DNA from: a virus | DNA: 61,847 nt | IMG/VR virus record: IMGVR_UViG_3300048587_000332 | Coordinates: 1 to 61,847 of that record | Reading direction: 5' to 3' (one strand) | Notes under the pieces: generated by a model | Told to the model about the DNA's origin: nothing | The model's database searches: none | What the model saw: only the letters and a program-made list of their open reading frames with translations | Shown here: positions 3,949-55,915 of the stretch, in pieces | Position numbering within the stretch: position 1 is the first letter of the stretch | How the letters are laid out: every line of letters begins with the position of its first letter | Program-made: the position numbers and the translations under genes

Positions 3949-4137
3949 ATGAAGCATGTAGATTGGTTACAAATTCCCCATCCAACAACCGGGCAATTGT
4001 GTGCCGTTGAAATTCTAGGTGATTCTGACGGCTACTATTCCCGGACGGAATACCCGTTCGAAGAGGAAATAATGGGGCCATTTACGTCCCCACGGGAGGT
4101 ACAGGAGTATCTGTGGGCGCTGTACGGCAGATCGTAG
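3949..4137 (+). CDS. Small acidic early protein (62 aa)
   Basis: The first gene after the TATAAT promoter, with a strong GAAGGAGG 7 nt before its ATG. The 62-residue acidic product has several aromatic residues (DGYYSRTEYPFEEEI) and no recognised family. Small acidic proteins made first in infection are often host-takeover factors; here that is only inferred from position. Confidence 0.6.
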   Translation: MKHVDWLQIPHPTTGQLCAVEILGDSDGYYSRTEYPFEEEIMGPFTSPREVQEYLWALYGRS

Positions 4138-4432: not shown

Positions 4433-4466
4433 CTGCTCCGAAGGAGCAGAGAAAGAGAAGGAAAAA

Positions 4467-5476: not shown

Positions 5477-5503
5477 CTCGTAGCTAAACTAGTTATTAAC
5501 GAA

Positions 5504-5512
5504 TGGTACAAT
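5504..5512 (+). promoter_or_regulatory. Extended -10 promoter before the HNH gene
   Basis: TGG TACAAT, followed four bases later by GTAG (GGAAGTAGGAG), matches the genome-wide consensus of this phage. Initiation would fall near or within the Shine-Dalgarno of the gene at 5533, giving a very short leader. No good -35 is seen, as expected for an extended -10 promoter. Confidence 0.6.
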
Positions 5513-5532
5513 GGAAGTAGGAGATATCTTTC

Positions 5533-6201: not shown

Positions 6202-6319
6202 AAATGCGTTAGGAGAGCATTTGCTCAATGAGGCCCAAACCGCTGACCCCCTGGCGGAAACACCCCTAACGCCGCAGGCGGCAGACCACCGAGACTTTAT
6301 CGAATCACTGGAGGATTGA
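5963..6319 (+). CDS. Small zinc-finger protein overlapping the HNH gene (118 aa)
   Basis: It starts at the ATG at 5963 with GGAGG 10 nt upstream, inside the 3' half of the HNH gene and in a different frame; the overlap is 239 bp. Residues 19-40 contain CKHCQTSF...FCSTNCRVKHW, a treble-clef-like zinc finger (CxxC...CxxxC) well known in small phage proteins and predicted to bind nucleic acid. The remainder is helical, then Pro/Ala-rich and acidic. The motif and the good ribosome-binding site make this frame convincing despite the overlap. Confidence 0.75.
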   Translation: MSQENGPNSNTSVLPPKKCKHCQTSFQPNRYWQDFCSTNCRVKHWHLLKRPLLLTPTELSKLLQNPANRSILTRLHQQAKNALGEHLLNEAQTADPLAETPLTPQAADHRDFIESLED

Positions 6320-6320
6320 C

Positions 6321-6569
6321 ATGGAATACCTGAGACCCATCAAAACCGCCCCTAAAGACGGAACCTATATCCTCATCTTTGGGAGTAGCGGCTACCTTAA
6401 CACGCCCCTTCGTTGCGAGGTGGCTCGTTGGGAGTATTTGAACGAAGACAGCTTACTTCCAGAAGGCTTCTGGGCCAATCATGCCGGGGACTGGTTTACC
6501 GATGGTGGCCCCGAACCCCTGTACTGGTGCCCTATCCCATCATCCACTTTCAAAATCGAAGAGGCTTAG
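6321..6569 (+). CDS. DUF551-like small protein (82 aa)
   Basis: The pattern PIKTAPKDGTYILIF, a central Trp region and a C-terminal LYWCPIP match the short DUF551-type proteins common in phages and prophages ('IsTAPkDGt.ILl...W.p.P'). The biochemical function of that family is unknown. It begins 1 bp after the previous stop, with GGAGG nearby, and abuts the next gene (stop 6569, ATG 6570), so all are in one operon. Confidence 0.75.
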   Translation: MEYLRPIKTAPKDGTYILIFGSSGYLNTPLRCEVARWEYLNEDSLLPEGFWANHAGDWFTDGGPEPLYWCPIPSSTFKIEEA

Positions 6570-6953
6570 ATGGCCACCGAACCGCACCTACGCGACGTTG
6601 ACTACGTAGATTTGAAGACCGGCAAAGGTCTTCGCTTCACATTAGTCATCCCTCTCCCTTCGGGAGAAGTCTTCTTAGTCCCTGGCTATCTAGCGCGGAG
6701 GTCCGCTAAGGGGAAACTGGAAGTACTCCCTCCGTCGCGCAAAGCGGGGCACCGTTACTTCCCGGTGGTAGACACCCCTACAGGGCTTCTGCTGGAGATG
6801 ACGGACCTACTCGAAATGCAGTACGGCAAGAAGCTCTACTACAAGCCGCCTAAAGGGCGCAAAGCACCCGGCAGAAAGCGTGTACCGCGCTACGCACCGT
6901 CGGCTACGCCGGAAGAAATTGCAATGGTGGAAACCCCACCGTGGGAGGAATAA
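6570..6953 (+). CDS. SpoVG-like small protein B (127 aa)
   Basis: Residues 18-40 form strands (LRFTLVIPLPSGEVFLVPGY). Next comes VLPPSRKAGHRYFPVVDTP, close to the Pro-Ser-Arg/Lys loop of SpoVG-type DNA-binding proteins, and then an amphipathic helix (LLLEMTDLLEMQYGKK). The C-terminal 40 residues are a basic Lys/Arg/Pro tail. It resembles the product of 4467-4769 in the same order of elements, so the two may be paralogues. The stop overlaps the next start (TAATG). Confidence 0.5.
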   Translation: MATEPHLRDVDYVDLKTGKGLRFTLVIPLPSGEVFLVPGYLARRSAKGKLEVLPPSRKAGHRYFPVVDTPTGLLLEMTDLLEMQYGKKLYYKPPKGRKAPGRKRVPRYAPSATPEEIAMVETPPWEE

Positions 6954-7162
6954 TGGAACCGAAAAAGGGCCAAGTTTGGGCGGATTCATCCGAACTGAGA
7001 GAGATACTCAAAACTGACGCTTCCAGCGTTACCTATGTCTCCAGTATTAGCGCCTGGAACAATAAAATGCGCACTGGCGAACACAAAGACCTATTGCGAG
7101 ACTGGCGCAGCTTTGCTGCAAAAGCCCACTGCCTGTTCGACCCGGAGGTACTTGGCAAATGA
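6953..7162 (+). CDS. Small hypothetical protein (69 aa)
   Basis: The ATG at 6953 overlaps the previous stop, and GGAGG lies 4 nt upstream; the earlier in-frame start at 6941 has no such site. The 69 residues have an N-terminal polar half and a C-terminal amphipathic helix (LLRDWRSFAAKAHCLF). No family is recognised. The next gene overlaps by 4 nt. Confidence 0.55.
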   Translation: MEPKKGQVWADSSELREILKTDASSVTYVSSISAWNNKMRTGEHKDLLRDWRSFAAKAHCLFDPEVLGK

Positions 7163-7407
7163 TGGAAGAAGCCTATAAAGACTACACCTTCAACATCAAC
7201 GTCTACCGGGGTGAGTATGTCACCCTCAAAATGAGACCGCGAGGTCTCGCCCTCACAGTGGCTACGCAACCGGAGCTTCGCTCTATCCGGGAGATTCTAA
7301 AGGCCGTAGGCGAACTGGTCGAGTGCATTAGTATAATCGAAAGAGGGGGCCTATTCTATGCGGATCAAGAAGGACAAGAGCCTGAGCCAAATACGGACGG
7401 AGAGTAA
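7159..7407 (+). CDS. Small hypothetical protein (82 aa)
   Basis: It starts at ATGATGG overlapping the previous stop. The N-terminal half is predicted beta (YTFNINVYRGEYVTLKM), followed by a helix and an acidic tail. No family is recognised. Its last 50 bp overlap the candidate small terminase gene in another frame. Confidence 0.5.
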   Translation: MMEEAYKDYTFNINVYRGEYVTLKMRPRGLALTVATQPELRSIREILKAVGELVECISIIERGGLFYADQEGQEPEPNTDGE

Positions 7408-7840
7408 AGCAATCGCAAAGCAATTCGTTGACTTGACTGTAGGCCAGGGCCTCTCACAAAGCGAAGCCGCTGTTGCCCTAGGCAATCCAGCTTCGCTGGA
7501 AAGCACGCCTGTACAGGCTGAAATTCAGCGCCTGCTAAGGCAGCAAGACCTCTCCAACGAACAGATCAATCGCCTTCTGACCGCTAAAGCGGTCGAGACA
7601 ATGCTAACTGCTGACCGCGCTAGCGACCAGTTGAAAGCTGCCGAACTACTAGCGAAGAAAAAGGAAGTCGGCTGGGCACCTGCGGAGAAGATCAACATTA
7701 ACATTGCGCTTCTCAAGGAACGCGAAGCACTCCTGGCGGATGTACTCGACTTCACGGGTTACGAGCAAAAAGGAGAAATCATTACAGCCGATTTCGAAGT
7801 TCCTTCGGAGGCTCTCGATTCAAAAAAGGAGGATCAGTGA
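7358..7840 (+). CDS. Candidate terminase small subunit / HTH DNA-binding protein (160 aa)
   Basis: Residues 15-45 (LTVGQGLSQSEAAVALGNP) read like the helix-turn-helix start of small terminase subunits, and the middle (LLTAKAVETMLTADRASDQLKAAELLAKK) like their oligomerisation helices. The C-terminus is acidic, as is often seen where the small subunit contacts the large one. Small terminases recognise the packaging site and regulate the motor. No other TerS candidate lies beside TerL (46067-47863), so the two subunits would be about 38 kb apart. A generic HTH regulator is a real alternative. Confidence 0.45.
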   Translation: MRIKKDKSLSQIRTESKAIAKQFVDLTVGQGLSQSEAAVALGNPASLESTPVQAEIQRLLRQQDLSNEQINRLLTAKAVETMLTADRASDQLKAAELLAKKKEVGWAPAEKININIALLKEREALLADVLDFTGYEQKGEIITADFEVPSEALDSKKEDQ

Positions 7841-8394
7841 AGGTTTTAATAGCTTGTGAATTTTCAGGCATCGTTCGAGATGCCTTCCTCCGCAAAGGAC
7901 ATATTGCTTTATCTTGTGATCTACTCCCAACTGAACAAGAAGGTCCCCACTTTCAAGGAAACGTTCTAAATATTCTACATGATGGATGGGATCTTATGAT
8001 AGCTCACCCTCCCTGCACGCATTTAGCGGTAAGTGGCGCTCGCTGGTGGAAGAGCAAACAGGCGGAGCAAGCAGAGGCTCTCGATTTTATCCGAGAGCTA
8101 CTCAACGCGCCAATTTCCAGAATTGCATTAGAAAATCCTATTTCACGCATCTCTACAGCAATCCGTAAACCGGATCAAATCGTTCAACCTTGGATGTTTG
8201 GTCATGGGGAGACTAAAGCCACTTGTTTATGGCTGAAAAATCTGCCGCCGCTGAAGCCGACCAACATTGTCACAGGACGAGAGGCTCGCATTCATCGTAT
8301 GGCTCCCTCAGTAACTCGATGGAAGGATCGTAGTCGTACCTATTATGGCATCGCGGAAGCAATGGCAGAACAGTGGGGAGAACGAAGTTCATGA
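7837..8394 (+). CDS. Small DNA cytosine methyltransferase-like protein (185 aa)
   Basis: The product begins MKVLIACEFSGIVRDAF (a Rossmann-type SAM-binding strand), and residues 53-66 contain LMIAHPPCTHLAVSG, the PPC motif of cytosine-C5 methyltransferases. A later NPISRIS and conserved Trp residues match the short phage family usually annotated as DNA cytosine methyltransferase. It is half the length of typical enzymes and lacks an obvious target-recognition domain. The start is GTG at 7837, overlapping the previous stop, with AAGGAGG upstream. It may protect phage DNA from host restriction. Confidence 0.7.
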   Translation: MKVLIACEFSGIVRDAFLRKGHIALSCDLLPTEQEGPHFQGNVLNILHDGWDLMIAHPPCTHLAVSGARWWKSKQAEQAEALDFIRELLNAPISRIALENPISRISTAIRKPDQIVQPWMFGHGETKATCLWLKNLPPLKPTNIVTGREARIHRMAPSVTRWKDRSRTYYGIAEAMAEQWGERSS

Positions 8395-9227: not shown

Positions 9228-9233
9228 TGGGGT

Positions 9234-9689
9234 ATGACACACACACCAACAATCCCAAACCCTCAAATTTTCAAAGCACCAAAGATCCAACATCAATCCG
9301 AACTCTCGGAATGCCGCTGCGGCCTAGACTATGACGTAGTGACTGGGAGACATTTCCCCCGAGTGTTAGGAAGTTCTTACGCAGCGGCCCAGACCCCCGA
9401 CGATTATTATGGGTCTCCGGAGTGTTTCGAAGTCACTATCCAGATTCGAGGCTACTGTCCTTTGAATTTTCCCTATGAAGATAGAGCAGATTTCGTTAAA
9501 TTCTGGGCGCTGCCTGAAAAAGATCGGGCAATTCTCTCAGCGAAATGCGTTTTCCTGGAAATTGCCCCTATCGAAGAACTCTGCGACTTGGAACACTTCG
9601 ACGTTTCCGGGCCACACCACTTTGCCTACCACTGCAAGGGGGACAAGCTGTTCTTCTCTTGCACTTACGAGGGTTATGAGATTTGCTAG
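9234..9689 (+). CDS. Hypothetical protein, leaderless (151 aa)
   Basis: The N-terminus is Pro/Thr-rich (MTHTPTIPNPQIFKAP); the rest is a mixed fold with eight Cys residues, including CRCG near residue 27 and ECFEV/CPLNF, so metal binding is possible but no standard motif is clear. No family is recognised. The gene has its own well-formed promoter and no Shine-Dalgarno. It is followed by two small hairpins and the secreted-protein gene at 9720. Confidence 0.55.
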   Translation: MTHTPTIPNPQIFKAPKIQHQSELSECRCGLDYDVVTGRHFPRVLGSSYAAAQTPDDYYGSPECFEVTIQIRGYCPLNFPYEDRADFVKFWALPEKDRAILSAKCVFLEIAPIEELCDLEHFDVSGPHHFAYHCKGDKLFFSCTYEGYEIC

Positions 9690-9719
9690 GGGCCGGAGGC
9701 CTTTCCAAAGGAAAACACA

Positions 9720-10346
9720 ATGAAACTCACATTCACACTTTTGACACTCTGCTTTGCGCTTAGCGCCCAGGTGCTGCCCGTCATCGACGCCACACCTGGT
9801 ACGCAACTCTGTATCCTCAACGACTCCGACGAAACGGTCGGCTACAACATTCAGTTCAGGGAGCCACTTGGCTCCCCCGCACAACCTTCTTTCGAAGCCT
9901 TTGGACCGCAAGCGGCCCTTCTAGGAGGGCTTGCTCCGCAAGCACTAGCTTGCTACACGTTCGCTGAACCCGGCACCTACTGGGCTGCCAACGTATCGCC
10001 CTTCGGCGCTCCGCGCATCTTTGTCCTGACGGACACTGGCGTGCTACGCACGCAAAAACCCGGCGTGAAACGCACGCTTCCATGGTTTGAACTGAACGCG
10101 GATACGGAACTCGTGCTCGTGAACACGGGAGAAACGCCGGTCAGCGTGGCGGCTATCTACCGCGAACGCAACGGCGTTGAAGTGTTTCGCTCAGAAACCG
10201 TCGTTGGCCCCTACCAACAGGCGAGGCTCCGCCTTGATTTCGAGCGCCTTCGCGACCTAAACGGCTCCGTGACCTTGATTGACACACTCAATCTCGGTAC
10301 ACTGGTAACGGCGGCGCACTTCGCGCCCAAGGGCATTGTTTACTAG
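9720..10346 (+). CDS. Secreted hypothetical protein with Sec signal peptide (208 aa)
   Basis: The N-terminus MKLTFTLLTLCFALSAQ is a typical Sec signal peptide with a likely cut after Ser-Ala. The mature 190 residues are predicted all-beta (strand-rich, many Gly/Pro/Thr, few charges), in keeping with one or two beta-sandwich domains. No enzyme motif is seen. A secreted phage protein expressed with early/replication genes could alter the host envelope, for example superinfection exclusion, or act outside the cell. AAAGGA in the arm of a small hairpin (9702-9714) is the ribosome-binding site. Confidence 0.65.
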   Translation: MKLTFTLLTLCFALSAQVLPVIDATPGTQLCILNDSDETVGYNIQFREPLGSPAQPSFEAFGPQAALLGGLAPQALACYTFAEPGTYWAANVSPFGAPRIFVLTDTGVLRTQKPGVKRTLPWFELNADTELVLVNTGETPVSVAAIYRERNGVEVFRSETVVGPYQQARLRLDFERLRDLNGSVTLIDTLNLGTLVTAAHFAPKGIVY

Positions 10347-33505: not shown

Positions 33506-35845
33506 TTAGTATCCAATGCCACCAGTGTACTCCCAAATAATTCTCATGCCGTGACATTCGAACTTCTCGTTGACTGCCGATTTTGCTACGTTGATCCCGA
33601 TTCGCTCGCCCACCTTGTAAATGTTGTCGCAATACTTGTAGGCGAGATAATCGGTACTCTGCGATCTACGCGGCGGCGGATACGCAGTGCCGGAAGCAAC
33701 CGATGTGCTCATGCTGTCAATAAAGAATGTGAGCGTCGGTTCCGTATCCCCCGTAAACTTCTTTCGTTCGAACACAACTGCATAGATGCATGGCACAAAT
33801 GTCGGTTTCTTGTATGTGTTCACGTTATTTCCCGAGGGAATGCCGAACAGGTTCGTCTTATAAGAGTAGGTATAATTCTGCGCAGCGGCGGGTACGTAGT
33901 CCTGTGTTCCGTCATCCTGGTAGTAGTTTAGCGAAACAGTATTAGTGCTCCTATTCCAACCGCTGCCGATTAGATAGTCTTTTGTGTCTGTCTCATAAAT
34001 CTGACCGCTTGCGATGCAAGACACAGGCAAATCCCAAGGAGTATACCAGAAGATACCCTCTTGTTGCAAGTCAAATACAAAGGTTCGCGTAAGCGAAGCA
34101 TCGGAAATGTTCGTTGCCTGCAACACAACCCAGTCAAGCTGGTCTACTTGGTAGGAAGTAAGATAGAGGCGCAGGTTTGAAACGCCATTCGACGGCGCTA
34201 GGCGCGTAGCCAGTTCTGCCCCCAGCGGGTCGCCAATAGGTTCCTTCTGGTTGTCGCGGGCGCGGAAAATGCGGTTGTTGTTGGACACCCAGTAGACCAC
34301 ATCGCCCTTGGCGCACATGCCCCACCCGTCCTTCGCCCCTACGTCAGTGAATAGCGGTTGGATGGAGAACGAGGGCTTGTCGAAGCCCTTCAGCCAGTAA
34401 GTGCGTCTCGTTGTGAAGATATAGAGCGATTCCGCCGTGGACACCATACCAACAAGCGGTTCCTGGAGGCGGAAGAAGTTCCCTAGTGTACCCGACGGCC
34501 AAGCCTCTTCGGGCTTCCCTTGGTCCAATTCTTCAAGGGCGCTGTAAAACAGCACGTTGCCAATTCCGTACCACAGACGGCCCGCGAACTTAACGATAGG
34601 CGTCGAGGGATGGGGCGTAGTGGTTCCGACGATCCCGCCGTCTTCCGCCAACACCGTAGGGGGCGGAGAATTGGAAGTGAGGGTAGGAGCTACGCTCGCC
34701 TTATCCAACTGCGAGTCTGGCACTGGGTCCAAACCATAATAAGTAATAGTCGCCCCGTTCGAATGGGAAGCTGCGGTCGTTCCGGCGAAGCCGCGCTCGA
34801 CGGTGAACGTAGTGCCGCTTACAGCAGTCACTTTAATGTATTCACTGCCAATGAGAATGGCGAAGTCGCCATACCCAGGGAAGTTGGTGGCGGAAGCCAC
34901 CACTAGCGAAAGTACACTCGAACTAATTCCGCCATTTAGTGTGGTTGTGACCGTCCCACCAGTCAAACCGCTCACAAAGCTATTGTCGGTGTAGGTCTGA
35001 GACGAACTGGGCGTCATTGCCGACACGTCAATGGTGTCTAGTTCGTACCAAGTACCGCCACCGTCAGTTGTGCGAAATACTACAACTGTAGGAAAATTGG
35101 TAGGGTCGGCGGGAACAACGTATGTCAATTTCGGCAAAAGGTTACTGAAAGCGCCCGTGTTGCTGGCCGGGAAGTCGTAGTTCGTTTCGAGCGGCGAACG
35201 GTTGGTAATGTGCCCCGTAAGACTCTTGTAGGCGTAGGTGTACTGCCACCCTTGCGAAACCGTGAAGGGGTGGGCGGAGGAAGTCCAAGCACTGTAGAGC
35301 GCATCGCCGGTCTTGTATTGGTTGGTCATCCGCGCGGCAGTAGACGGCCCCAAAGCGCCCCACGGTTTCACCGTCAAATCGTCTCCGTTGAAGACGACGG
35401 TACCGAGCTTTTCGCTGCTTGCGTTTGCGGGATATCCCTTGACATAGAGGAGGCCCCGAGACTCACACATCTCATGAGGGCGCGTGGAAGCGTTAATATC
35501 TCGGTACGAAGTGATTTGCGTCCACACGGTAGGCGCAGAAGGACGTGTATAATAGACGCTCCAAGTGGTGGATGCCGTGTCGTAGACAGACGCCATCACA
35601 AAGGACTTGGGCGAAGCGCCCATGGTCGTATAGCAATAGAGACGGTCGATTCGCTTATTCGCCCCGATGGTACTGGCGGCAGCTACCTGAGACATTGATC
35701 CGCGCTTCTTGAGGAACCCTCCTGTAGCGGTCTGGTTATTCAAGCCAGAGACAATACGCGGAGCTGGATCAAGGTCCGACAGGATAGCGTCGAACGGAAG
35801 CCGAAGGGGAATAGATATGCCGTCAAGCTGATTCTCTTGTGCCAT
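33506..35845 (-). CDS. Tail nozzle / tail tubular protein B-like (779 aa)
   Basis: A 779-residue beta-rich protein of propeller-like sequence (repeated aromatic strands: RLWYGIGNVLFYSALEE; ESLYIFTTRRTYWLKGF; VVYWVSNNNRIFRARDN). This resembles the gp12-type nozzles that cap the short tails of T7-like phages. The N-terminus IPLRLPFDAILSD matches the opening of that family loosely. Its place between the adaptor genes and the fibre supports the call. SD and start are ordinary; GTG/ATG options of the fibre gene overlap its end. Confidence 0.7.
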   Translation of the reverse strand: MAQENQLDGISIPLRLPFDAILSDLDPAPRIVSGLNNQTATGGFLKKRGSMSQVAAASTIGANKRIDRLYCYTTMGASPKSFVMASVYDTASTTWSVYYTRPSAPTVWTQITSYRDINASTRPHEMCESRGLLYVKGYPANASSEKLGTVVFNGDDLTVKPWGALGPSTAARMTNQYKTGDALYSAWTSSAHPFTVSQGWQYTYAYKSLTGHITNRSPLETNYDFPASNTGAFSNLLPKLTYVVPADPTNFPTVVVFRTTDGGGTWYELDTIDVSAMTPSSSQTYTDNSFVSGLTGGTVTTTLNGGISSSVLSLVVASATNFPGYGDFAILIGSEYIKVTAVSGTTFTVERGFAGTTAASHSNGATITYYGLDPVPDSQLDKASVAPTLTSNSPPPTVLAEDGGIVGTTTPHPSTPIVKFAGRLWYGIGNVLFYSALEELDQGKPEEAWPSGTLGNFFRLQEPLVGMVSTAESLYIFTTRRTYWLKGFDKPSFSIQPLFTDVGAKDGWGMCAKGDVVYWVSNNNRIFRARDNQKEPIGDPLGAELATRLAPSNGVSNLRLYLTSYQVDQLDWVVLQATNISDASLTRTFVFDLQQEGIFWYTPWDLPVSCIASGQIYETDTKDYLIGSGWNRSTNTVSLNYYQDDGTQDYVPAAAQNYTYSYKTNLFGIPSGNNVNTYKKPTFVPCIYAVVFERKKFTGDTEPTLTFFIDSMSTSVASGTAYPPPRRSQSTDYLAYKYCDNIYKVGERIGINVAKSAVNEKFECHGMRIIWEYTGGIGY

Positions 35846-44966: not shown

Positions 44967-45038
44967 CTGTAGGTGGCCGAAAAAAGGAGTTGATTTGGAA
45001 TGCCTTTGCGAGTAAGCTCCAAGAGAGGAGAACCTAAA

Positions 45039-46070
45039 ATGCCTGTAAACGGAACTCGGAGGTGCATCTCAATGGCCGCCTCCCGGCGAGCGCGAGAAGC
45101 CGAACTCCCGTACCTAGTACGACTTCGCGAGCGCATCATCGGTCAGGAGTGCATTTCCAAAATCACTCCCTACCTGGATATGATCGACGCCAACCTCAAC
45201 CCGCCAGGAAGACCCGCTGGCGTTTTCATGCTTCTCGGCCCCACGGGTACAGGTAAGACTAGAACCGTCGAAGCCGTAACTGAGATACTGCACCACTCCG
45301 ACCGTCATTTGCTCCGCATCGATTGCGGAGAATTTCAAATGGAACACGAAGTAGCAAAATTGATCGGAGCGCCTCCAGGCTACCTGGGGCACAAAGAGAC
45401 TTCGCCCCTACTTAACAAGCAAAGGCTAGAAGCCGTTACCTCCAAATACAGCCGCATTTCCGTTGTTCTCTTCGATGAGGTGGAAAAGGCCGCGCCTTCT
45501 ATGCAGCGCCTCCTCCTGGGCATTCTCGACAAAGGCATTTTGCGAATTGGCGACAACAACTCCGTTGACTTCGAAAACTCGCTCATCTTCTTTACATCCA
45601 ATGTTGGCTATGCCGAAATCGGCCAGATGGGGAAAGCTCCCGGCTTCGCCAATACCACTTCGCCCGCGTCCCTCTCTCGCATGGTTGAACAGCGCCTCAA
45701 GCGCAAGTTCTCCCCGGAATTCGTCAACCGCATTGATGAGTTTCTCTATTTCGAGGAATTGACCAAAGAGAATCTCCGCCAGATCGTAGACCTTGAACTG
45801 ACCAAAGCCGAGGACTGGCTCACCACTCGCTGGGGTTTCGATTCATGCGCTTTGCGCTTCGACGACTCCGCGAAGGATCTCTTTGTCAAGGTCGGCTTCG
45901 AAGCCAAATACGGGGCGCGTCCGCTCAAGCGAGCCATCACCCATCTGTTGTGGCAACCACTGGCGGTCCTCAAGACCAGCGGAAAGATTACGGCGGGCCT
46001 TACCATCCACATCACCGCCGACGGCGATAAGCTCGCCTTCTCCCAGGAAAAGCGGCAGGCGGCTACCTAA
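45039..46070 (+). CDS. ClpB/ClpA D2-like AAA+ ATPase (343 aa)
   Basis: One AAA+ module: Walker A MLLGPTGTGKT (about 63-73), VAKLIGAPPGYLGHKE (the pore-loop region typical of ClpA/ClpB D2), Walker B VVLFDEVEKAAP (about 146-157), sensor 1 FFTSNVG, FSPEFVNRIDEFLYF (arginine-finger region), and sensor 2 YGARPLKRAI. It lacks the N-domain, D1 and middle domain of ClpB and the ClpP-binding loop is not evident. It probably unfolds or remodels protein complexes. It lies alone on the (+) strand between portal and terminase genes, so a role in assembly or host control is possible. GAGAGGAG precedes the ATG. Confidence 0.8.
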   Translation: MPVNGTRRCISMAASRRAREAELPYLVRLRERIIGQECISKITPYLDMIDANLNPPGRPAGVFMLLGPTGTGKTRTVEAVTEILHHSDRHLLRIDCGEFQMEHEVAKLIGAPPGYLGHKETSPLLNKQRLEAVTSKYSRISVVLFDEVEKAAPSMQRLLLGILDKGILRIGDNNSVDFENSLIFFTSNVGYAEIGQMGKAPGFANTTSPASLSRMVEQRLKRKFSPEFVNRIDEFLYFEELTKENLRQIVDLELTKAEDWLTTRWGFDSCALRFDDSAKDLFVKVGFEAKYGARPLKRAITHLLWQPLAVLKTSGKITAGLTIHITADGDKLAFSQEKRQAAT

Positions 46071-47863
46071 AGCCCGCCTGTCCGCGAATAGTAGCTCTCT
46101 TCAGGCAAAGCCGGGTTCGCATAGGGATTCTCCAGCCCCTGTACGAGAGCATTAAATGCTTTCTGTGCCATGGTTTCGAAAGTCTCTCTCTCACGAATCC
46201 TCCCATAGAACGACTTATTCTGAAACTGGTCCGCGAGTGTATCCAAGATGTCGTCCGACACACCCTTCGGGAATTGCGTGAACTCCTGGTAAATGGCTTC
46301 CTTCACATCAGAGGGCAAGCCCTCCGAAAACCGTAGATCGCCTCGCCGCAACACTGGCTGCAACGTCAGCCGAATACGCTCCAGCTTACTCTTCTGGTTA
46401 TCCGGCTTGACGAAATCAAGCGGAATGGAGAAACGCTTCAGGTGCATCTCTCGCTCAAGGCCGAAGCGAAATCCGCGTGAGTAACTTGTCTCCTCAATGC
46501 GCACCACAATAGGTCGCCACTTAGCATATACCTCGAAGATCGCCGAAGCCAGTTCGTCCGGCTTCATCTTGTCTCGGCGCACATCCACCACATAACAGCG
46601 ATTGTTGGAGTCCCACCCGCACGTCGTCACTACCGAATAGTTACTATTCTCGTTCGTGGTTTCGGCTGTGTCCACCGTCGTCGCATAATATTCCATCGGA
46701 ATTTTGCGCACAATATCAGCGGGCACATACTGGACAACAGAAGCCGGAAAGTCGCTTGCCTCCGTATCTCCAACGGGATGATTGCGGTACTGTGAGTTGA
46801 ACTCGAACTTCGATTGCGCCGGGTCGTTCTCCATCTCCAGCAACGTATCTACCGGAACTCGCGCAGGCCACCAACTAATCGGCTTTCCGTCCGCATCCTT
46901 CAGGTCCGGCAGTTCCAACTCTTCGGGCAGAAAAGCATAGTCCTTAACGCCAGGGGGCAGCTTTTTCTTATAACACCCTCTAACATAGATACTCCAACTG
47001 CGCCGCTCGACCGGAAGCTGTTTCTGTCCGTCAATGATACGCCCGTATAAATCGTCGAAGTGGTACCGGGTTCCCTCCACGTCAATCCAGTATTGCGGCG
47101 ATACGAGAATAGGTCGAAACATACCGAACTTGTAGGCAATAGTATCACGGCGATCCTTGTTGGCGCTATTCTCCGACTCCACACAGTCCGTAAACTTGAG
47201 AATATCGAAGTGCATACCAGCAATCGTACTCTCAATAGACGACGTTCCCACCGAAGGTTCGCGCCGCGTCTTATTCGGACGGCTGGGCAAATAAAACTCC
47301 GAAGCATTCCCGAAGTGCTTCAACTCCTCTTCCGTAGGACATACGTCGGGAAACAACATCCGCAATTGTTCGTTCGTGGCGAAATGACTCTTAATGGTCA
47401 TCAGCACTTTCTGCGCGTGCCCCTCTTTCGCGTGAATGACCAGTATTCGCGCATCTGGATAATTAAGCAACCATTGGATGGTATGCGCTTCGACATTAGT
47501 GGACGTTTTAAGGCTGCCGCGAAAATCGAGTATTAGGCGTCTTCGAGGTCCTGGCAGATCAAGCATATTAGGAATCACCGGCTTATATGCCCACGACACA
47601 GAACCATCGGGCTTAACTACGGGCTTGTCATAATTGAACCACTCATTTTCTGCGGGCAGCGGAAACGTCTGCAAAGTGCGCACCAATCCGTAATGCACAT
47701 CAGGACGCACGTCTTTGTACCCAAGCACCTTATTACACAGGTAATACATATTGGTCCGCGCCAACCACCGTGCTTTGGCGATCTTCATAATCGCCTCGCG
47801 CTCCTCGGTGACCTGTTTGGTGCGTGCCTCACGCGGGTCTTTAACGTACAAATTCAGTGACAT
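46067..47863 (-). CDS. terL: Terminase large subunit (598 aa)
   Basis: Residues 105-120 hold LILDFRGSLKTS, a Walker A-like motif of the terminase type with Arg/Ser before Lys. A hydrophobic strand with Asp/Cys follows (FDILKFTDCVESEN). The C-terminal nuclease acids are in TTVDTAETTNENSNYSVV (about 395-412) and GVSDDILDTLADQF. The protein pumps DNA into the procapsid and cuts it. Its 3' end overlaps the converging AAA+ gene by 4 bp and its start overlaps the JAMM gene by 23 bp. The only small-subunit candidate is at 7358. Confidence 0.88.
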   Translation of the reverse strand: MSLNLYVKDPREARTKQVTEEREAIMKIAKARWLARTNMYYLCNKVLGYKDVRPDVHYGLVRTLQTFPLPAENEWFNYDKPVVKPDGSVSWAYKPVIPNMLDLPGPRRRLILDFRGSLKTSTNVEAHTIQWLLNYPDARILVIHAKEGHAQKVLMTIKSHFATNEQLRMLFPDVCPTEEELKHFGNASEFYLPSRPNKTRREPSVGTSSIESTIAGMHFDILKFTDCVESENSANKDRRDTIAYKFGMFRPILVSPQYWIDVEGTRYHFDDLYGRIIDGQKQLPVERRSWSIYVRGCYKKKLPPGVKDYAFLPEELELPDLKDADGKPISWWPARVPVDTLLEMENDPAQSKFEFNSQYRNHPVGDTEASDFPASVVQYVPADIVRKIPMEYYATTVDTAETTNENSNYSVVTTCGWDSNNRCYVVDVRRDKMKPDELASAIFEVYAKWRPIVVRIEETSYSRGFRFGLEREMHLKRFSIPLDFVKPDNQKSKLERIRLTLQPVLRRGDLRFSEGLPSDVKEAIYQEFTQFPKGVSDDILDTLADQFQNKSFYGRIRERETFETMAQKAFNALVQGLENPYANPALPEESYYSRTGGL

Positions 47864-48281
47864 ACAGCCCTTTCGGATCGTAAAATCTCAGATCATATTG
47901 CCACCGCTTGCCCTTCCGGCAAACGTGCAATATGCCCATTAGATGCTCCTCCCATCCGTACTCGTAATCAAATAAAGAAGGAACGGCTTCGCAACTATAT
48001 AATTCCGGCTCCGCTTCGGGATGAGTATGAACAGATCCTAAAAGCTTTAACCCCAAAACATTGGAAATATATTCTGCGGCGCATTGAGATTCAGCGCTTA
48101 CCGCTATAGTTTCTGGAGTTGCTTTTACTACATCAGAGCCTTCGGCTATATACATAGTTTGTACGTGGATAACTTCATTTTCTACAGTACCAAATAAATA
48201 GCCTAACATCTCATTCGGAAACGCTTCTCTCGCCTTCTTGCGCAAGTGCTTCCAAACAATCTCCGCCACTTTGACCGTCAC
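47841..48281 (-). CDS. JAMM/Mov34 metallopeptidase-like protein (146 aa)
   Basis: GTG start at 48281 with TAGGAG 6 nt upstream; the longer frame to 48401 is inside the previous gene. The JAMM signature is present: catalytic Glu in FPNEMLGYLFG, then GSVHTHPEAEP and VPSLFD, that is H-x-H ... P-S-x-x-D, coordinating zinc. Phage members include the peptidase half of tail proteins of the lambda gpK type, which act in tail assembly; bacterial ones remove ubiquitin-like tags. Here it is a separate protein between terminase and fibre genes, unusual for a short-tailed phage. Confidence 0.75.
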   Translation of the reverse strand: MTVKVAEIVWKHLRKKAREAFPNEMLGYLFGTVENEVIHVQTMYIAEGSDVVKATPETIAVSAESQCAAEYISNVLGLKLLGSVHTHPEAEPELYSCEAVPSLFDYEYGWEEHLMGILHVCRKGKRWQYDLRFYDPKGLYVTEFVR

Positions 48282-48289
48282 AAAGTCTC

Positions 48290-51200
48290 CTAATTGACAA
48301 TTACATTCTGCGTCGCTCTCGCCAGCACAGCCGACGAAGCATTCAAATACTCGATCAGCACCGTTTGCCCGCCTGCGCGAAAGTCGCTGGTCACGCTGCA
48401 CGCCACCGCCTGGCAGGTATTCGTCACCGCCACGCCGCTCGCGTTGGTCGCCGTGATGCGGATGCGGTCGCCATACGCCAGCGGAGATCCCACCTGCACG
48501 GTCAGCGTGCGATTCTCCGCGGGTGCAGGGCCTCCTAGTCGCGCCGCTGGCCAGGTTGAGCCGCCACCCATGCCGTAGGCTTGCCCGAGCGCCTTTTGCC
48601 GGGCATCGTCGCCGGTTGCGCCGCCATCCTCCGGCTGGGCCATATAGGCGACATATTTGCCATCACCGGCCAGAGGCGCGGCATATCCGGGCCGGGAATA
48701 AATCAACCGATAGTATTCGTCGCCGCGGGTTTTATCGGCTGGATTGAGCGTGTGCAGATAGTAGGCCGTGAAGGCGTCAACGCCCTCCATGGAGTAATCG
48801 CGCTCCACGTTGTATGGTCCTGCAAGATCGAAGTCGCAGATCGTCTTTACCGTTGGGTCTCGGGGGCCGCAAGTAGGCATCGAGTCGAAATACGGCTGTC
48901 CCAAACTTAGAGGATCCAAATTGTCGAAGTTCAACGTGAGCAGACTCCCCACCAGTGTCCAATAGTTCGCCGCCATGGTTGGTTCGTCGGCTTCGAGGGC
49001 TTTCGCCGCCGCCACGTAAGCATTGGCGCGAAGTTCGTCCATGAACGGCTGCCGCGCCCACGGCGAATATATGCTGTATTTGTTAGCAGCAAGCAATCGC
49101 CGATAGACGTTCCCGCCGCTGGTATCGCCCGCGAACGGCTTGTGTAGGCGAATCTGGGTACCGCTCTCCACCGTGCAGGCGTAGGCGTCGTTCAGTTCGA
49201 ATGCGCGTGGCGATTTCACCGCGCCCGCGCTGGTCACTCCCTCGAAGTGCTGGATCGGATACCCCACGTCGCCCTCGACGTAGAATCGCGTAATCGCCCC
49301 GGCATCGCCTCGCCACGGGAATTCGAGCGTGGCGCTTGTGGCGGTTGGGGTTGGCGTTCCCGCGATCCGGTCAATCTCCATGTGCGGTTGCCCACCGCGC
49401 AAGCCAACCAGCATGATGTTTTTCCCGCCCGTCCCCACCCAGTTCGTGCCCGTGCCTGTGAGCACGGTCCCACCCACGTTCACCGTAGCCGAGCCGCCCG
49501 GCTGGAACGGAGTGCCGCAATAATCGCTCCCGATGTTTGGGCCGGAATAGAGCGTCATCAGATCCGAGCCGTTGGTAGCTTGCCAAACTCGGGCGGTGTC
49601 TTGAAAATTCGGATAGAACGAATAATATCCGCCATTCGGGTAGCGGTTCGGAATGGCCTGGAGATTATAGTGCGTAATCAGCTTCGCACGGAAGTCCGAC
49701 CGAGTAGTTGGATTCGGGTGATATTTAGCGATGATAGCCGCCGCCCAAACACAATAGGCATCTTCGCGTTGGTCGTTTGGCTGGTCTCTCGTGACATCCG
49801 TGAGACACCCAAGGATGCGATTCGTAATCATGGGCCAGGGGTCCTTCCCCTCCCAGATTTCCGGCATCAGTGTGGCCGCGAGTGTGACGCTTACGGTTGG
49901 CTCGGAGCGTCCCACCCACTGAGCGAAATAGGGATTACGAAATTGAACCTTGGCCATATACTGAGCCGCCCGCAGCATGGCGATGTCTCCGCTTCGATAC
50001 CAAGCTCGAAAATAAGCAAGACCAGTATCGTAGTAACCAATCGACATAGCATTGGATGCCGTCCAGTTCCCCATGTTACCTTGCTGTCCGAAAAACAGAC
50101 CCCATCGAATCCCTGGAGCGGCTACGGTGATATCTCTCTCGGATTCCAAGTATGGTTCGGCGGTGATTTCCGTATCGCTGACGCAGCTTCGCACTCGCTG
50201 AGCTAAAGGTCTCGGAATTCCGCCAACTCCCCCATAGGCCGGAGAAACGACATCGGGCACGAGCCAAAACACGGCATCCACCGGAGACAACGCTCCGGGG
50301 GTTCCGCCGCAAAACAGGCTCAGCCATTGAGTGCCAACGCCATGCAGCGTGCGCGTATATGGCCACGTGGGATTCACTTCGTCCCACCAGATTGTCCCGG
50401 CAATCGGAACGCCCAGTATGTCGTCGCGCAGGTTCGGCAACTGCACGTATCCGCCATTGACCTTATAGTCCATCGCCAAGTCATGCGTGAGCGTGTACTG
50501 CGTTTGATCCGCGTAGGCCCAGGGATTTTGCCCACGCACATGCTGAGGCCCTAGGAGATCGTCCAGCCGGGCGTCCGGGTAAATCACGATGCCGTTGTCG
50601 TCGTAGGCGACCGCCCCAATGTCGGTGTCAAGCGAAGCCTTTTGTCCGGTTGAGTCCGTCACGGCCAGACGGAACTTATATGAACCGAAAACCAGGCCCG
50701 TGAGCGTGGGCGTGCAACTGTTGCGGTTGTCGAATACGGCTTGCGACGGGCCATCCAGTTGCTGCCAGAGACACGCAACATCGGCGGAAGCATCCACCAT
50801 CGAGTAGCTATTGGACACAAGTTGCCCAGGATGACCGGCGCGCAGCGGGATGAAGTTCGCCCAATAGGGCGTGTTCGCGGAAGTGGGCTTCGAGTAGGCA
50901 AGTTGCGCCGGGCTCGACTCGAACGTCAATCCGGTGATGCTATTGAGGTTGCGCCCGTTGCCGCTACTATCGTTGCCGTTGCCGTCAAACTTCAACTCCA
51001 GGCCATCGCCCGAATCCGCCGTGACGGGAGGGCGGGAGCGCAGCGGAACCAGAGTCGAAAAGACGCGCAGGAAGCCCAGCTTCGCGCCCCCGTCGGGGAT
51101 CGGCCAGAGTTCTCCGCCCGCGTTGCCCCAGGCGTTCGCGCTGGTAATCGCGAGCCGGTCGATGAAGTAGTTGCTGCCATCGACTTCCCATATCTCGCAA

Positions 51201-51553
51201 CTGTAGGTCATCGCGGCGTAGTCGCGCTGAATCCGCACCAGGGAATTCGTTCGCCCTTCCATCGCGATGATGCAGGGCTCGGCGGGGGAAACGGAATCTC
51301 GCGAAGTCTGAATCCAAAGCCCCTGCCCACCGTAGGGCGTAGCGGTGATTTTCAGGCCGACGCCAAGTAGCTTGACCAGATCGCTCGTGGCGGTTGGAGC
51401 GGAGAAGCCGTGAAGTTGAAACTCCACGCGCCAGCTTGCGGTCGTGGCGAGGTTAGGATCGGCGAACGTGCGCGTCGAGGGAATCGGCCAAGAGAGCGAT
51501 TGCCCACCGAAGAGCGAAGCAGCGAGCAAGCAAGTCAAGAATAGTACACGCAT
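48290..51553 (-). CDS. Very large exported protein, tailspike/depolymerase candidate (1087 aa)
   Basis: It begins with a Sec signal peptide (MRVLFLTCLLAASLFGGQS). Residues 40-210 look like a LamG/concanavalin-like lectin fold (WRVEFQLHGFSAPTATSDL; GDGLELKFDGNGNDSSGNG). Residues 230-310 suggest an Ig/PKD-type domain. Residues 480-930 have helix pairs (YYDTGLAYFRAWYRSGD; AMLRAAQYMAKVQF) resembling alpha/alpha-toroid glycosidases or lyases. The C-terminal 100 residues are an Ig-like beta domain (LTVQVGSPLAYGDRIRITATN). It is probably a polysaccharide-degrading protein. Its export signal is odd for a virion part. Confidence 0.6.
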   Translation of the reverse strand: MRVLFLTCLLAASLFGGQSLSWPIPSTRTFADPNLATTASWRVEFQLHGFSAPTATSDLVKLLGVGLKITATPYGGQGLWIQTSRDSVSPAEPCIIAMEGRTNSLVRIQRDYAAMTYSCEIWEVDGSNYFIDRLAITSANAWGNAGGELWPIPDGGAKLGFLRVFSTLVPLRSRPPVTADSGDGLELKFDGNGNDSSGNGRNLNSITGLTFESSPAQLAYSKPTSANTPYWANFIPLRAGHPGQLVSNSYSMVDASADVACLWQQLDGPSQAVFDNRNSCTPTLTGLVFGSYKFRLAVTDSTGQKASLDTDIGAVAYDDNGIVIYPDARLDDLLGPQHVRGQNPWAYADQTQYTLTHDLAMDYKVNGGYVQLPNLRDDILGVPIAGTIWWDEVNPTWPYTRTLHGVGTQWLSLFCGGTPGALSPVDAVFWLVPDVVSPAYGGVGGIPRPLAQRVRSCVSDTEITAEPYLESERDITVAAPGIRWGLFFGQQGNMGNWTASNAMSIGYYDTGLAYFRAWYRSGDIAMLRAAQYMAKVQFRNPYFAQWVGRSEPTVSVTLAATLMPEIWEGKDPWPMITNRILGCLTDVTRDQPNDQREDAYCVWAAAIIAKYHPNPTTRSDFRAKLITHYNLQAIPNRYPNGGYYSFYPNFQDTARVWQATNGSDLMTLYSGPNIGSDYCGTPFQPGGSATVNVGGTVLTGTGTNWVGTGGKNIMLVGLRGGQPHMEIDRIAGTPTPTATSATLEFPWRGDAGAITRFYVEGDVGYPIQHFEGVTSAGAVKSPRAFELNDAYACTVESGTQIRLHKPFAGDTSGGNVYRRLLAANKYSIYSPWARQPFMDELRANAYVAAAKALEADEPTMAANYWTLVGSLLTLNFDNLDPLSLGQPYFDSMPTCGPRDPTVKTICDFDLAGPYNVERDYSMEGVDAFTAYYLHTLNPADKTRGDEYYRLIYSRPGYAAPLAGDGKYVAYMAQPEDGGATGDDARQKALGQAYGMGGGSTWPAARLGGPAPAENRTLTVQVGSPLAYGDRIRITATNASGVAVTNTCQAVACSVTSDFRAGGQTVLIEYLNASSAVLARATQNVIVN

Positions 51554-51567
51554 CGCGTTAATCCCCT

Positions 51568-53757
51568 TTATCGTGTGAGCGTGCTCATGCCTGCATAGAA
51601 GTCGATATCAATCGACCGCGCCGCCGCTGAGTTGGTCTTCACGTAGATGCCCGGCGAAATAGCGGTATCGGGCAGCGTCGAGTTGATGTTCGAGGATGTG
51701 GTGGAATTGACGCGGATCTTCACATAGCCGGACGTGTCGCTGATGATCCGCACCTTCACCCACGCATTTGCCACAAACGCCACGCCAGAGTCCGTACGCG
51801 TAGGAGTCGATCCATACGATGTGCAGAACATCCAGTTCGTATCGATGGCGGAATCGTAGGCGAGGTAGATGCCTTCGTCAGAATCGAAGTCGCCTTTGAG
51901 AAAGCCAATCGCGTACTTGCCGCCCGCGTCCACGGGGCGTACAACGAACAAGTGATCTTGAGCACCATTGGCCGCGTCCGTATAAGTGAACCCGCCGGAG
52001 GTCCCTCCGTTACCTTCCAGCCCCAGGAATTGCCAGTTGCCGCTGGTAGCCGTCGTGGTGATACGAAAAATCCCCGGATGATTAGACTCAGAGGCCACCA
52101 CTCCATAAGTGCCTGTGGCTGACCCAGTGGATCGCCACTGCAACTCGCTCCAAAATCCTGGGTTCGCGCCGGTGCCGCCGCCGAAGAAGTCGTCGCGCAG
52201 GAACACCTTCGTTTGATCCATCCAGTCGGTAGACATGCCACCACCGCTATCACCTTGAGCCGTCCAGGTGTTCGTGGCTGTGCAAACAAGCCACTGCGAA
52301 CTAGCTGTTGCGTCGGTGTCAATGAACGTCTCTCCCACGGCGCACGTGGCGGGAGGCGTGGTCCCGGTTTTCGAGGGCTTGGTCGATGTCTTCCCGGAAA
52401 GATCGAGTGTAGAGCTTAATGCAAACGTCGGATTGCCGCTCACCCCGTCCCCATTCGTCACGCCGATTTCATTGGATGTGCCCGTGAGGGTTCGGGCTGT
52501 GGATGTGTTGAGCGCCGTGCGTGCCATCATCCCATTCGCACCAGGATCGCCCATGCCGCCGCCTCCAGAACCAACCACTCCCATACGCCACACGGAGCCG
52601 TCGTAACGCAACGGTACCTGTCTGCCAGCCACAAGCGCAGACGCGCCAGGGTCCGTTGTGCCATCCGATTGCTTCACGTTTCTGCTACCGAGGGCATCCA
52701 CGTTGAGCGTGATCGCGCCCGCGCTCGAAGACACGTCCGGCTCAAACTCAATCACCGCGCCATCGGTATACGCCGTGAGCGTGGGCGACATCGCGCACGT
52801 GTAATTCGCGCCGCTTGCGCTGGCTGGCACACAACGCAAATCGCTTCCGGCTTGCGCTTGCGCCCGGCCAAGCATCACGGCTGTGTCCGCAGCAAAAGTC
52901 GGATTGCCACCGACACCGCTGCCATTCGTGACTACGACGCCTGTCCCCGCTGTAAGCGTCCGTGCCGTGGTGGTATTGAGCGCCGTGCGCACAACCACGC
53001 CGTTCGCGCCGGGATCGCCCAGGCCGCCGCCACCACCCGAACCCCCGAGCGCCACATAAGCGCTCCCGTTGTAGCGGCAGAGAGCCGCCGCCGATCCGCC
53101 GCCCGTGGTGCAATCCGAGGCGTTCGCCGCGTCGGTAAACACTACAACCAGCCCCGTATAGGGCGATGCCGGAGGACTCGCGATGGTATGGGACGGAATC
53201 GGCAGCACCCATGCGGAGTTGGTTCCGTCCGTGCCGAGCACGTACCGAGTCTTGCCGCTCTGACTAGGGACGAGGGCATCAATCGCCCCTTGCGCCGTCG
53301 TCTGGCCCGTGCCGCCCTGGGCAATTGCCAGTTGCCCGCTGGTGATATCTCCCGCCGCGTGCGTATGCGACGCCGCGGCCTTGCCGTCGATCTGGCCCTG
53401 AATGCCGGACGTAACTCCCGACAAATACCCCAACTCCGTGGAGGTCACACTTGACACCGCTACATTCCCGCTACCGTCGCTCTGCAAAGCGCGGCTAGCG
53501 GTAAGCCCACTAATAGCGCCGCTTGAAAGAGTCCACGTATTCGTCGCCGTACACACATAAACATTCTGCCCAGCAGTCGCGTCCGAATCGAAAAACGCAT
53601 CCCCCACGCTACAGGTAGCAGGCAAAGACGTGCCAATCACCCAAGGTTTGATAAATGCGTGAGTCGAAAAATCCGCGTTCCGGGACTGTGATTTGAGATC
53701 CAATTGCTGACCGAGCGCCAGCGAAACGGCAAAAAGGAGGGCAAAAATGTAGCGCAT
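51568..53757 (-). CDS. Tail fibre protein with signal peptide and internal duplication (729 aa)
   Basis: A signal peptide (MRYIFALLFAVSLALGQQ) precedes a typical fibre shaft: LGYLSGVTSGIQGQIDGKAA, SHTHAAGDITSGQLAIAQGG and TGQTTAQGAIDAL match the collar/shaft repeats of many phage fibres. Two blocks are duplicated: GTSLPATCSVGDAFFDSD / GTTPPATCAVGETFIDTD, and GDPGANGVVVRTALNTTT / GDPGANGMMARTALNTST. The C-terminal 200 residues (from VFLRDDFFGGG) are a beta-sandwich, possibly carbohydrate-binding. Host recognition is the likely role. The late promoter at 53781 precedes it. Confidence 0.7.
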   Translation of the reverse strand: MRYIFALLFAVSLALGQQLDLKSQSRNADFSTHAFIKPWVIGTSLPATCSVGDAFFDSDATAGQNVYVCTATNTWTLSSGAISGLTASRALQSDGSGNVAVSSVTSTELGYLSGVTSGIQGQIDGKAAASHTHAAGDITSGQLAIAQGGTGQTTAQGAIDALVPSQSGKTRYVLGTDGTNSAWVLPIPSHTIASPPASPYTGLVVVFTDAANASDCTTGGGSAAALCRYNGSAYVALGGSGGGGGLGDPGANGVVVRTALNTTTARTLTAGTGVVVTNGSGVGGNPTFAADTAVMLGRAQAQAGSDLRCVPASASGANYTCAMSPTLTAYTDGAVIEFEPDVSSSAGAITLNVDALGSRNVKQSDGTTDPGASALVAGRQVPLRYDGSVWRMGVVGSGGGGMGDPGANGMMARTALNTSTARTLTGTSNEIGVTNGDGVSGNPTFALSSTLDLSGKTSTKPSKTGTTPPATCAVGETFIDTDATASSQWLVCTATNTWTAQGDSGGGMSTDWMDQTKVFLRDDFFGGGTGANPGFWSELQWRSTGSATGTYGVVASESNHPGIFRITTTATSGNWQFLGLEGNGGTSGGFTYTDAANGAQDHLFVVRPVDAGGKYAIGFLKGDFDSDEGIYLAYDSAIDTNWMFCTSYGSTPTRTDSGVAFVANAWVKVRIISDTSGYVKIRVNSTTSSNINSTLPDTAISPGIYVKTNSAAARSIDIDFYAGMSTLTR

Positions 53758-54850: not shown

Positions 54851-55082
54851 GAGCTTCGCTCCCTTTCGGCGGCTCCTCGTTGATGGCGATGCTGGCGTTG
54901 GCCCACATCACTGCCTGTTGAATGTGTGTCAGAGCAGTTGACTTCTCCCGCGATTCGGGACACGCATCCTGCACTAAGTGCGCGAACTCTTTGGCGGCTT
55001 GCCTAATCTTGACGTACCTTTCCGGCTGGTCCCCAAAGGGGGCGCGGTAGGTAAAAATTCGATTGATCTGTTCGTTAGTCAC
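54843..55082 (-). CDS. acb2: Acb2/Tad1-like cyclic-nucleotide sponge (anti-CBASS) (79 aa)
   Basis: The 79-residue helical protein has the family signature: an N-terminal FTYRAPFGDQ, ERYVKIRQAAKEFAHLV, CPESREKSTALTHIQQA and the C-terminal VMWANASIAINE. Acb2 proteins form hexamers that bind cyclic di- and trinucleotides and so block CBASS (and, in some, Thoeris-type) signalling. The gene lies inside the lysis cassette, overlapping genes on both sides by 8 nt. Recognition is by sequence pattern only. Confidence 0.8.
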   Translation of the reverse strand: MTNEQINRIFTYRAPFGDQPERYVKIRQAAKEFAHLVQDACPESREKSTALTHIQQAVMWANASIAINEEPPKGSEARE

Positions 55083-55620
55083 TGATTAGCTCCTTCAAAG
55101 GTGTTTCCATGATCGTCTTGCGGTCGAGACCGCAGCGCTCGCCCACGAACTGCGCGTAAGTGTACGGCTCGTTGCCGTCCGAAGACGGCGCGTACACCTG
55201 GAACATGCCGAGCATCGAAGGCGACTTCCCATTCGTGTACTTCCCGTCAATGTACTGGCCGATCAGTGCCTCCAACACCCTGCGCCCCTCGGCGCAAGCC
55301 GAACGGACGCGCTCTGCGGGGCGTTTTGCCATTTCGCTTAGAATTTTATCTAAGGTTTGGCGGCGGACCGCTTTGGACGCCGACCGGGTGGGACGGCGCG
55401 GCATGAGAGGCTCTGTAGCTCCCGTGCGGTTCAACTCCCATTGATAGAAGTCGATGTAGCCGTAAGCGGTCGGGTGCTTGGCGCTCCAGCGGCGAACGTT
55501 GCCGGGGTTGCAAAGCTGCTGCGGGACGGTCGGAAAGTCGGGGTGCCCCGGCTTGGCGTGGTACCCCTCCTTAATTTCGATGGCATCCGCCATCAGCGAA
55601 ATAAGATCTTGTCGGGTCAT
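55075..55620 (-). CDS. Peptidoglycan hydrolase / lysozyme-like endolysin (181 aa)
   Basis: Residues 10-45 contain the helix and loop AIEIKEGYHAKPG...QLCNPGNVRRW, like the 'E-G...NNPGNLR' signature of phage muramidase/transglycosylase proteins, with a catalytic Glu in the first helix. The C-terminus has MFQVYAPSSDGNEPYTYAQFV and a helix. I take the ATG at 55620, just after the stop of the upstream membrane-protein gene; no clear Shine-Dalgarno exists, so translation may be coupled. Upstream in-frame starts at 55677 (ATG) and 55716 (TTG) add a hydrophobic, signal-like N-terminus but overlap that gene. Confidence 0.65.
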   Translation of the reverse strand: MTRQDLISLMADAIEIKEGYHAKPGHPDFPTVPQQLCNPGNVRRWSAKHPTAYGYIDFYQWELNRTGATEPLMPRRPTRSASKAVRRQTLDKILSEMAKRPAERVRSACAEGRRVLEALIGQYIDGKYTNGKSPSMLGMFQVYAPSSDGNEPYTYAQFVGERCGLDRKTIMETPLKELISD

Positions 55621-55639
55621 TGGCGTGCTCGTCGCGCCG

Positions 55640-55915
55640 TTAAGCGGCGCTCTTTTTGCGAAAGGTGCCGATGGCATTGAAAACGCCAACAACAATGTCA
55701 ATGATAGGGGTAGCAAGGTTGACCACGAAATCGGCAGAGAACTTGCCCTTCACGCCAGGGATAGACCCAACTACTTCAACGAGGGATTTGAGCGCGTCGA
55801 GCGCAAGCTGCTTCTTCTCAGACCCAGGAAGCTCCTCGGTTTCGACGGTCTTAACAATGCGCTCCAGGAGTTCCCAGAGAACGGGGATCAAAGCGAAAAT
55901 CTGCAAAAAGGCCAT
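55640..55915 (-). CDS. Membrane-associated protein, possible holin (91 aa)
   Basis: Two apolar segments (MAFLQIFALIPVLWELLERI and NLATPIIDIVVGVFNAI) surround a charged helix (ELPGSEKKQLALDALKSLVE). It resembles phage proteins annotated as holins upstream of endolysins. TAGGAG follows the promoter at 55936-55944 and precedes the ATG. With the 54644 gene there would be two holin-type proteins, perhaps holin and antiholin. Confidence 0.55.
   Translation of the reverse strand: MAFLQIFALIPVLWELLERIVKTVETEELPGSEKKQLALDALKSLVEVVGSIPGVKGKFSADFVVNLATPIIDIVVGVFNAIGTFRKKSAA

Follow-up and report, generated by a model that had tools for sequence, protein, structure and literature searches.

Two genes of a soil phage related to an exported protein pair from Bryobacterales exopolysaccharide clusters

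Phages carry capsule and exopolysaccharide (EPS) depolymerases on their tailspikes (reviewed in PMC6116005), and the alginate lyases of Azotobacter and Pseudomonas phages act on host EPS (PMC6116005). Lys44 of phage fOg44 is a Sec-exported phage endolysin (PMC6116005). Thus, both Sec-exported phage proteins and phage EPS lyases are already known. Here we describe two adjacent genes, encoding proteins of 1087 and 729 amino acids (aa), in the linear IMG/VR virus record IMGVR_UViG_3300048587_000332. This record, 61,847 bases of DNA from a soil phage, was analyzed over its full length and is called the window below. Both proteins are related to an exported pair in slime-making gene clusters of the Bryobacterales, and therefore the phage most likely secretes the pair to work on the sugar coat of its host instead of only incorporating it into the virion. 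We consider it fairly probable that the two genes are a captured, Sec-exported, EPS-directed lectin/enzyme-like pair, with phage fiber modules spliced into the 729-aa protein.

The pair shares features with each of the known systems. Like tailspike depolymerases, it is phage-encoded, presumably glycan-directed, swapped between related phages, and located near tail and lysis genes. However, typical tailspikes begin with a virion anchor, whereas the window pair begins with Sec signal peptides and a host exported module, and no β-helix spike fold was found in the pair. Lys44 is likewise a tailed-phage protein with a cleavable signal peptide that uses the host Sec system before lysis, as is predicted for the pair. 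But the target of Lys44 is peptidoglycan, for lysis, whereas the window proteins are large and lectin-like or fibrous, with a separate endolysin and holin encoded nearby. The alginate lyases are phage-encoded and directed against the host's own EPS, as we propose for the pair, but the likeness seen is one of fold, between PL7 lyases and the fiber C terminus. The Bryobacterales exported EPS-cluster pair (L083, L084, L088, L089, L091, and L103) has the same gene order as the phage pair and signal peptides on both genes, and is homologous to the window 1087-aa protein along nearly its full length. In contrast to it, the phage copies lie among virion, lysis, and packaging genes, and the Bryobacterales fiber-family genes lack the TELGYLSGVTS shaft motif of the phage copies.

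Both open reading frames (ORFs) are real and uninterrupted. They are minus-strand genes separated by 14 bases: the fiber-like 729-aa protein, which has homologous exported genes in host genomes, is encoded at positions 51568 to 53757, and the 1087-aa LamG-PKD-helical-pair protein, delineated by family alignments, at 48290 to 51553. The latter gene has a ribosome-binding-like AAAGGGG (51563 to 51569, minus strand). Each ORF starts with ATG and continues into a classic Sec-type signal peptide, which bears out the preliminary description of this DNA. In the 729-aa protein this is MRYIFALLFAVSLALG, before QQLDL (53710 to 53757, minus strand), and it is nearly identical in the related phage L001. 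In the 1087-aa protein it is MRVLFLTCLLAASLFG, before GQSLS (51506 to 51553, minus strand). Signal peptides were called by a scripted heuristic that looks for a charged n-region, an uncharged hydrophobic core, and small residues at -3 and -1; it passed 21 of 3000 (0.7%) random N termini drawn from the gene's own codons. By this heuristic, the Sec/SPI features (positive n-region, hydrophobic core, small residues before the cleavage site) are present in both window proteins and in all readable relatives.

The preliminary description had noted that translation might start downstream of the hydrophobic segment, and we rejected this possibility. Neither window gene has an ATG start after the signal. 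Nearby, the in-frame alternatives are all TTG or GTG. They either fall within the signal itself or come no earlier than codon 19 in the 729-aa gene and codon 43 in the 1087-aa gene, and a start past the hydrophobic segment is therefore not favored. When all window genes were scanned, the only convincing signal peptide gene besides the pair was at 9720 to 10346 (plus strand). It encodes a 208-aa early-region protein with the Sec-type signal MKLTFTLLTLCFALSAQ at its N terminus and has no family match. The endolysin ORF (55075 to 55716) opens with hydrophobic residues, but this segment shares its DNA with the upstream holin-like gene, which is read in a different frame; its likely start is at MTRQDL, and it was therefore not counted.

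The 1087 family occurs in five other viral contigs: L001 (73.6 kb), L004 (40 kb), L005 (30 kb), L011 (37 kb), and L013 (13.7 kb). All six phage proteins have a signal peptide, and GQS after the signal is invariant in 7 of 7 rows of the family alignment. A fiber-family gene lies directly upstream in five of the six phages by hidden Markov model (HMM) search and in L011 by alignment. All five fiber neighbors with a readable N terminus (window, L001, L004, L005, and L011) have a signal peptide as well; the L013 fiber is cut by the contig end. The 1087-family genes of the window and L004 share 65% DNA identity in their first 60 bases, whereas the remainder averages 89%, and both sequences still encode signal peptides. 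In a neutral simulation of one gene pair with 18 to 20 random changes, the signal, as called by the heuristic, was kept in 8 to 17% of trials. Over the whole gene, dN/dS is 0.15, which indicates purifying selection. For the fiber signal of the window and L001, dS is 0.95 and dN is 0.025, and dN/dS is 0.03 across the first 18 codons. These comparisons indicate that the signals are maintained by selection.

The cysteines also carry information on export. Among 37 family members, cysteines co-occur at alignment columns 590/635 (15 of 15 together, p = 1e-10), 491/494 (p = 1e-7), 94/119 (p = 1e-7), and 1047/1052 (p = 1.5e-5), although these p values overstate independence because the sequences are related. 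The mature protein has an even number of cysteines in 6 of 6 phage copies and in 29 of the 37 members. Many structural genes of the window encode few or no cysteines. Cysteines apparently gained and lost in pairs are the pattern expected of disulfides, and would fit proteins oxidized outside the cytoplasm.

The relatives of the pair in bacteria point to its source. A Bryobacterales (Acidobacteriota) genome encodes a 1090-aa homologue (41% identity) with a signal peptide, near genes for a UDP-GlcNAc 2-epimerase, a glycosyltransferase, and a flippase. The window protein is 41% identical to L007 over 1079 aa, and both its full-length homology and its shared signal-GQS start place it in the Bryobacterales LamG-PKD exported family. 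We found matches to the 1087 family in 47 of 257 Bryobacterales genomes and to some part of the fiber family in 160 of them. A fiber-family gene is directly upstream on the same strand in 22 of 36 inspected host loci, several of the negatives falling at contig ends, and 36 of 42 host fiber-family ORFs have a signal peptide call. The neighbors in L083, L087, and L089 include a sugar transferase (Bac_transf), GT4, Wzx, Wzy, a DegT aminotransferase, and an XrtA-type asparagine synthase; other host loci have ordinary chromosomal surroundings. Host-locus neighbors other than the pair gave no BLAST match to proteins of the phage contigs. In a tree of 39 rows, all phage copies fall within one host subclade, intermixed with host rows, and branches with SH-aLRT of at least 95 force at least four host/phage switches. 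Because the phage copies nest in a host subclade and the host copies are the more diverse, we infer a host-to-phage direction. Judged from sequence, the 1087-aa family is bacterial in origin. The earlier suggestion of host derivation thus holds for this family and for the fiber's N-terminal module, as seen in host genomes, tree, and alignment.

The window portal is 92% identical to the L001 and L013 portals, and no terminase or portal match to the window was found in the L004, L005, and L011 records. The window 1087-aa protein, in contrast, is 91% identical to that of the unrelated phage L004 but just 33 to 41% identical to the alleles of its close relatives L001 and L013. The window and L001 fibers are 93% identical over the first 120 residues and 39% thereafter. 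These breaks in identity show that the cassette is swapped between phages and that alleles change within one phage lineage. The 1087-aa protein had 0 matches among 50,697 genomes of isolated phages, in which the fiber gave short-stretch matches only, mainly to its shaft. Further viral scans found no new carriers.

The 729-aa protein had been described as clearly a fiber. Its shaft repeats and internal duplication agree with this, but its N terminus belongs to a bacterial exported family. That module (53518 to 53709, minus strand; DL..Q....DF...P...LP.TC...AG.N.Y.C....W) is common to Bryobacterales exported proteins, and DL, Q, DF, P, LP, both C, and W are invariant in an alignment of two phage and five host proteins. 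Family and PHROG searches gave no tail-attachment match for the fiber N terminus, which may still include an anchor of an undescribed type. The shaft (53263 to 53517, minus strand) consists of phage-fiber-like repeats (TELGYLSGVTS..., GGTGQTTA) with tblastn matches to tail proteins and a match to PHROG 16122 (E = 5.6e-8, residues 81 to 130); none of 42 host relatives has the TELGYLSGVTS motif. A second copy of the two-cysteine module (52258 to 52395, minus strand) reflects the duplication: PATC..C is found at residues 47 to 75 and 470 to 498, and GDPGANG..ARTALNT..TART occurs twice. In the AlphaFold model, the C terminus (51571 to 52206, minus strand) is a concanavalin-A-like jelly roll with viral fiber-type matches (VIA Z of up to 15.8), most like PL7 lyases and SO2946-type fiber ends. 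The PL7 match (Z = 15.8, 12% identity, residues 518 to 729) is a comparison of folds, catalytic motifs aside. The protein thus has both the shaft repeats and the C-terminal receptor-binding-type domain of a tail fiber. Sequence and model together show a mosaic of a bacterial exported N terminus with a shaft and C-terminal jelly roll that resemble those of phage fibers.

The 1087-aa protein had been taken for a spike or depolymerase, which is only partly right. Its LamG/concanavalin-A-like, lectin-like jelly roll (50897 to 51505, minus strand) covers model residues 14 to 219 (VIA Z of 11 to 14). Structure matches to lectins, pentraxins, and a neurotoxin complex were set aside as clues to function, as they merely reflect this shared fold. 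A PKD domain follows (PF22352; 50597 to 50794, minus strand; E = 1e-7 in the window protein, E = 1.1e-13 for a PDB profile match) and is found in 35 of 37 family members. The remainder (48584 to 50572, minus strand) is a helical-pair region with a β insert, probably an (α/α) toroid, seen in a low-confidence model of the protein (7 input sequences, pLDDT 52.8). Two of the 37 members have weak Pfam matches there to GH127 (best E = 0.0016), and one to GlcNAc 2-epimerase (E = 0.0013). GH127 and GlcNAc 2-epimerase are helical-toroid sugar enzymes. Because the model of this region is poor, we only infer that the protein is an enzyme.

We suggest the following scenario. The two genes would be a phage-borne copy of a Bryobacterales operon for exported proteins, often found within EPS clusters. 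The pair may be made late, beside the lysis and packaging genes, and both proteins would cross the membrane via Sec, have the signals cleaved off, and form disulfides on folding. The infected cell itself may supply their target, in the form of EPS or surface glycan. The 1087-aa protein would be lectin-like and probably a sugar-active enzyme, and the 729-aa protein its fibrous, glycan-binding partner. Much as secreted depolymerases or surface modifiers do, they might loosen or remodel the slime layer, so that progeny leave more easily or competitors' adsorption is blocked. Export before lysis, one of the options in the preliminary description, is the most likely reading, given the signal in every readable relative, the selection against its loss, and the paired cysteines.

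Several points weigh against this scenario. The analysis found no route by which the proteins would cross the outer membrane, the signal calls come from a home-made heuristic rather than SignalP, and a catalytic role for the helical region is deduced from a poor model and weak Pfam matches. Moreover, the fiber shaft and C-terminal jelly roll look like those of phage receptor-binding proteins, and many phages have their tail fiber genes at such a locus, between tail/lysis genes and terminase. The pair could accordingly be virion receptor-binding proteins, a tail fiber and a glycan-degrading spike, with signals inherited from host ancestors: after export, or while held in the membrane, they might be added to the virion as the cell lyses or afterward; alternatively, the signal might be a tolerated N terminus. 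The recurrence of this position in several phage types, the SO2946/PL7-like fiber end, and the receptor-binding-like allele swapping, in which 1087 alleles differ among phages with near-identical portals, all fit such a role. However, a bacterial exported-protein module occupies the fiber N terminus, where a tail anchor would sit, the signals are kept under selection, and cysteines are paired in these proteins although few or absent in many window structural genes. L004 and the window also have other fiber or spike candidates without a signal peptide; in the window this is a 779-aa tail protein (33506 to 35845, minus strand) that matches the tail families PHROG 1101 and 38058, so the phage has an alternative tail fiber candidate. 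We regard virion proteins as an unlikely explanation, though the main rival. The host-type N terminus, the selected signals, and the paired cysteines favor export, and both readings would accommodate a protein that is first exported and then attaches to virions.

A host-derived relic had also been proposed, and the signals might instead be nonfunctional remnants of recent capture from a bacterium. The family is indeed host-derived, but a signal is present in every readable phage copy even though identity between copies falls as low as 33%, and its sequence has changed greatly and is still a signal peptide. We rejected this explanation as very improbable, given the strong divergence with retention and the neutral simulation. 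A moron-like surface modification, by which the EPS of infected or lysogenized cells is altered to exclude other phages, overlaps with the export scenario and differs from it in timing and purpose. The EPS-cluster setting of the host homologues and a tyrosine integrase in the L005 record are in keeping with it. But the other five carrier records, including the window, gave no integrase match, and the genes sit in a late-gene position; we find this quite unlikely. Secretion of the pair onto the host's sugar coat remains our preferred reading.

We tentatively raise a broader possibility, that unrelated Acidobacteriota tailed phages repeatedly take a host EPS-cluster operon and splice in fiber modules. 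The products, glycan-binding and disulfide-bonded, would be Sec-exported "free fibers" acting outside the virion, which reshape the slime layer or hinder competing phages. In the open-access literature, we found no report of different phages repeatedly capturing an operon from host EPS clusters and fusing it to fiber modules, and nothing matching on exported phage fibers, Acidobacteria phage EPS genes, or viral secreted carbohydrate enzymes. If true, phages would have a route to obtain EPS-specificity determinants straight from host slime-making clusters, kept exported rather than virion-bound. It would also be a testable case of pre-lysis sugar-coat remodeling in a dominant, poorly studied soil phylum, and a caution that fiber-like phage genes need not encode virion proteins.

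The window genes include an SU10-type portal, a terminase, a major head protein, and DNA polymerase A (family matches). The pair has lysis-type genes on one side, including a holin-like gene upstream of the cassette (55640 to 55915, minus strand; weak PHROG 9407 match, E = 0.037). On the other side, the next gene in the operon encodes a JAB-domain protein (47841 to 48290, minus strand; PF14464, E = 4e-9), in the same order in L013. It is followed by the terminase large subunit (46067 to 47863, minus strand; PHROG 38, E = 2.7e-55), which has 70 to 73% identity to the terminases of two related phages. The interval from terminase to portal holds, on the other strand, a ClpB/ClpX-like AAA ATPase gene (45000 to 46070, plus strand), which is kept in a closely related record, L124 (IMGVR_UViG_3300048834_000258).

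Other observations concern the related contigs. In L011, three more signal peptide genes (117, 117, and 340 aa; 6268 to 7998) lie between the terminase and the 1081-aa gene, so that four such genes, the 1081-aa gene among them, follow the terminase consecutively. In L005, the fiber signal (gene at 3769 to 5997) ends in VAAC before A, which could be a lipobox, and the gene after the 1074-aa ORF (about 9230 to 9880) resembles a lipoprotein (LLFASSACRKQ). The L124 record holds a full 1168-aa copy of the 1087 family and, elsewhere, a second, contig-end ORF of 711 aa (190 to 2325) that resembles the β insert and helical region of the family and lies just upstream of the terminase. The L124 terminase gene (2752 to 5757) contains an in-frame insert of about 400 aa that is absent from the window terminase. 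With Cys at its start, HN before T at its end, and LAGLIDADG-like stretches, the insert is probably an intein.

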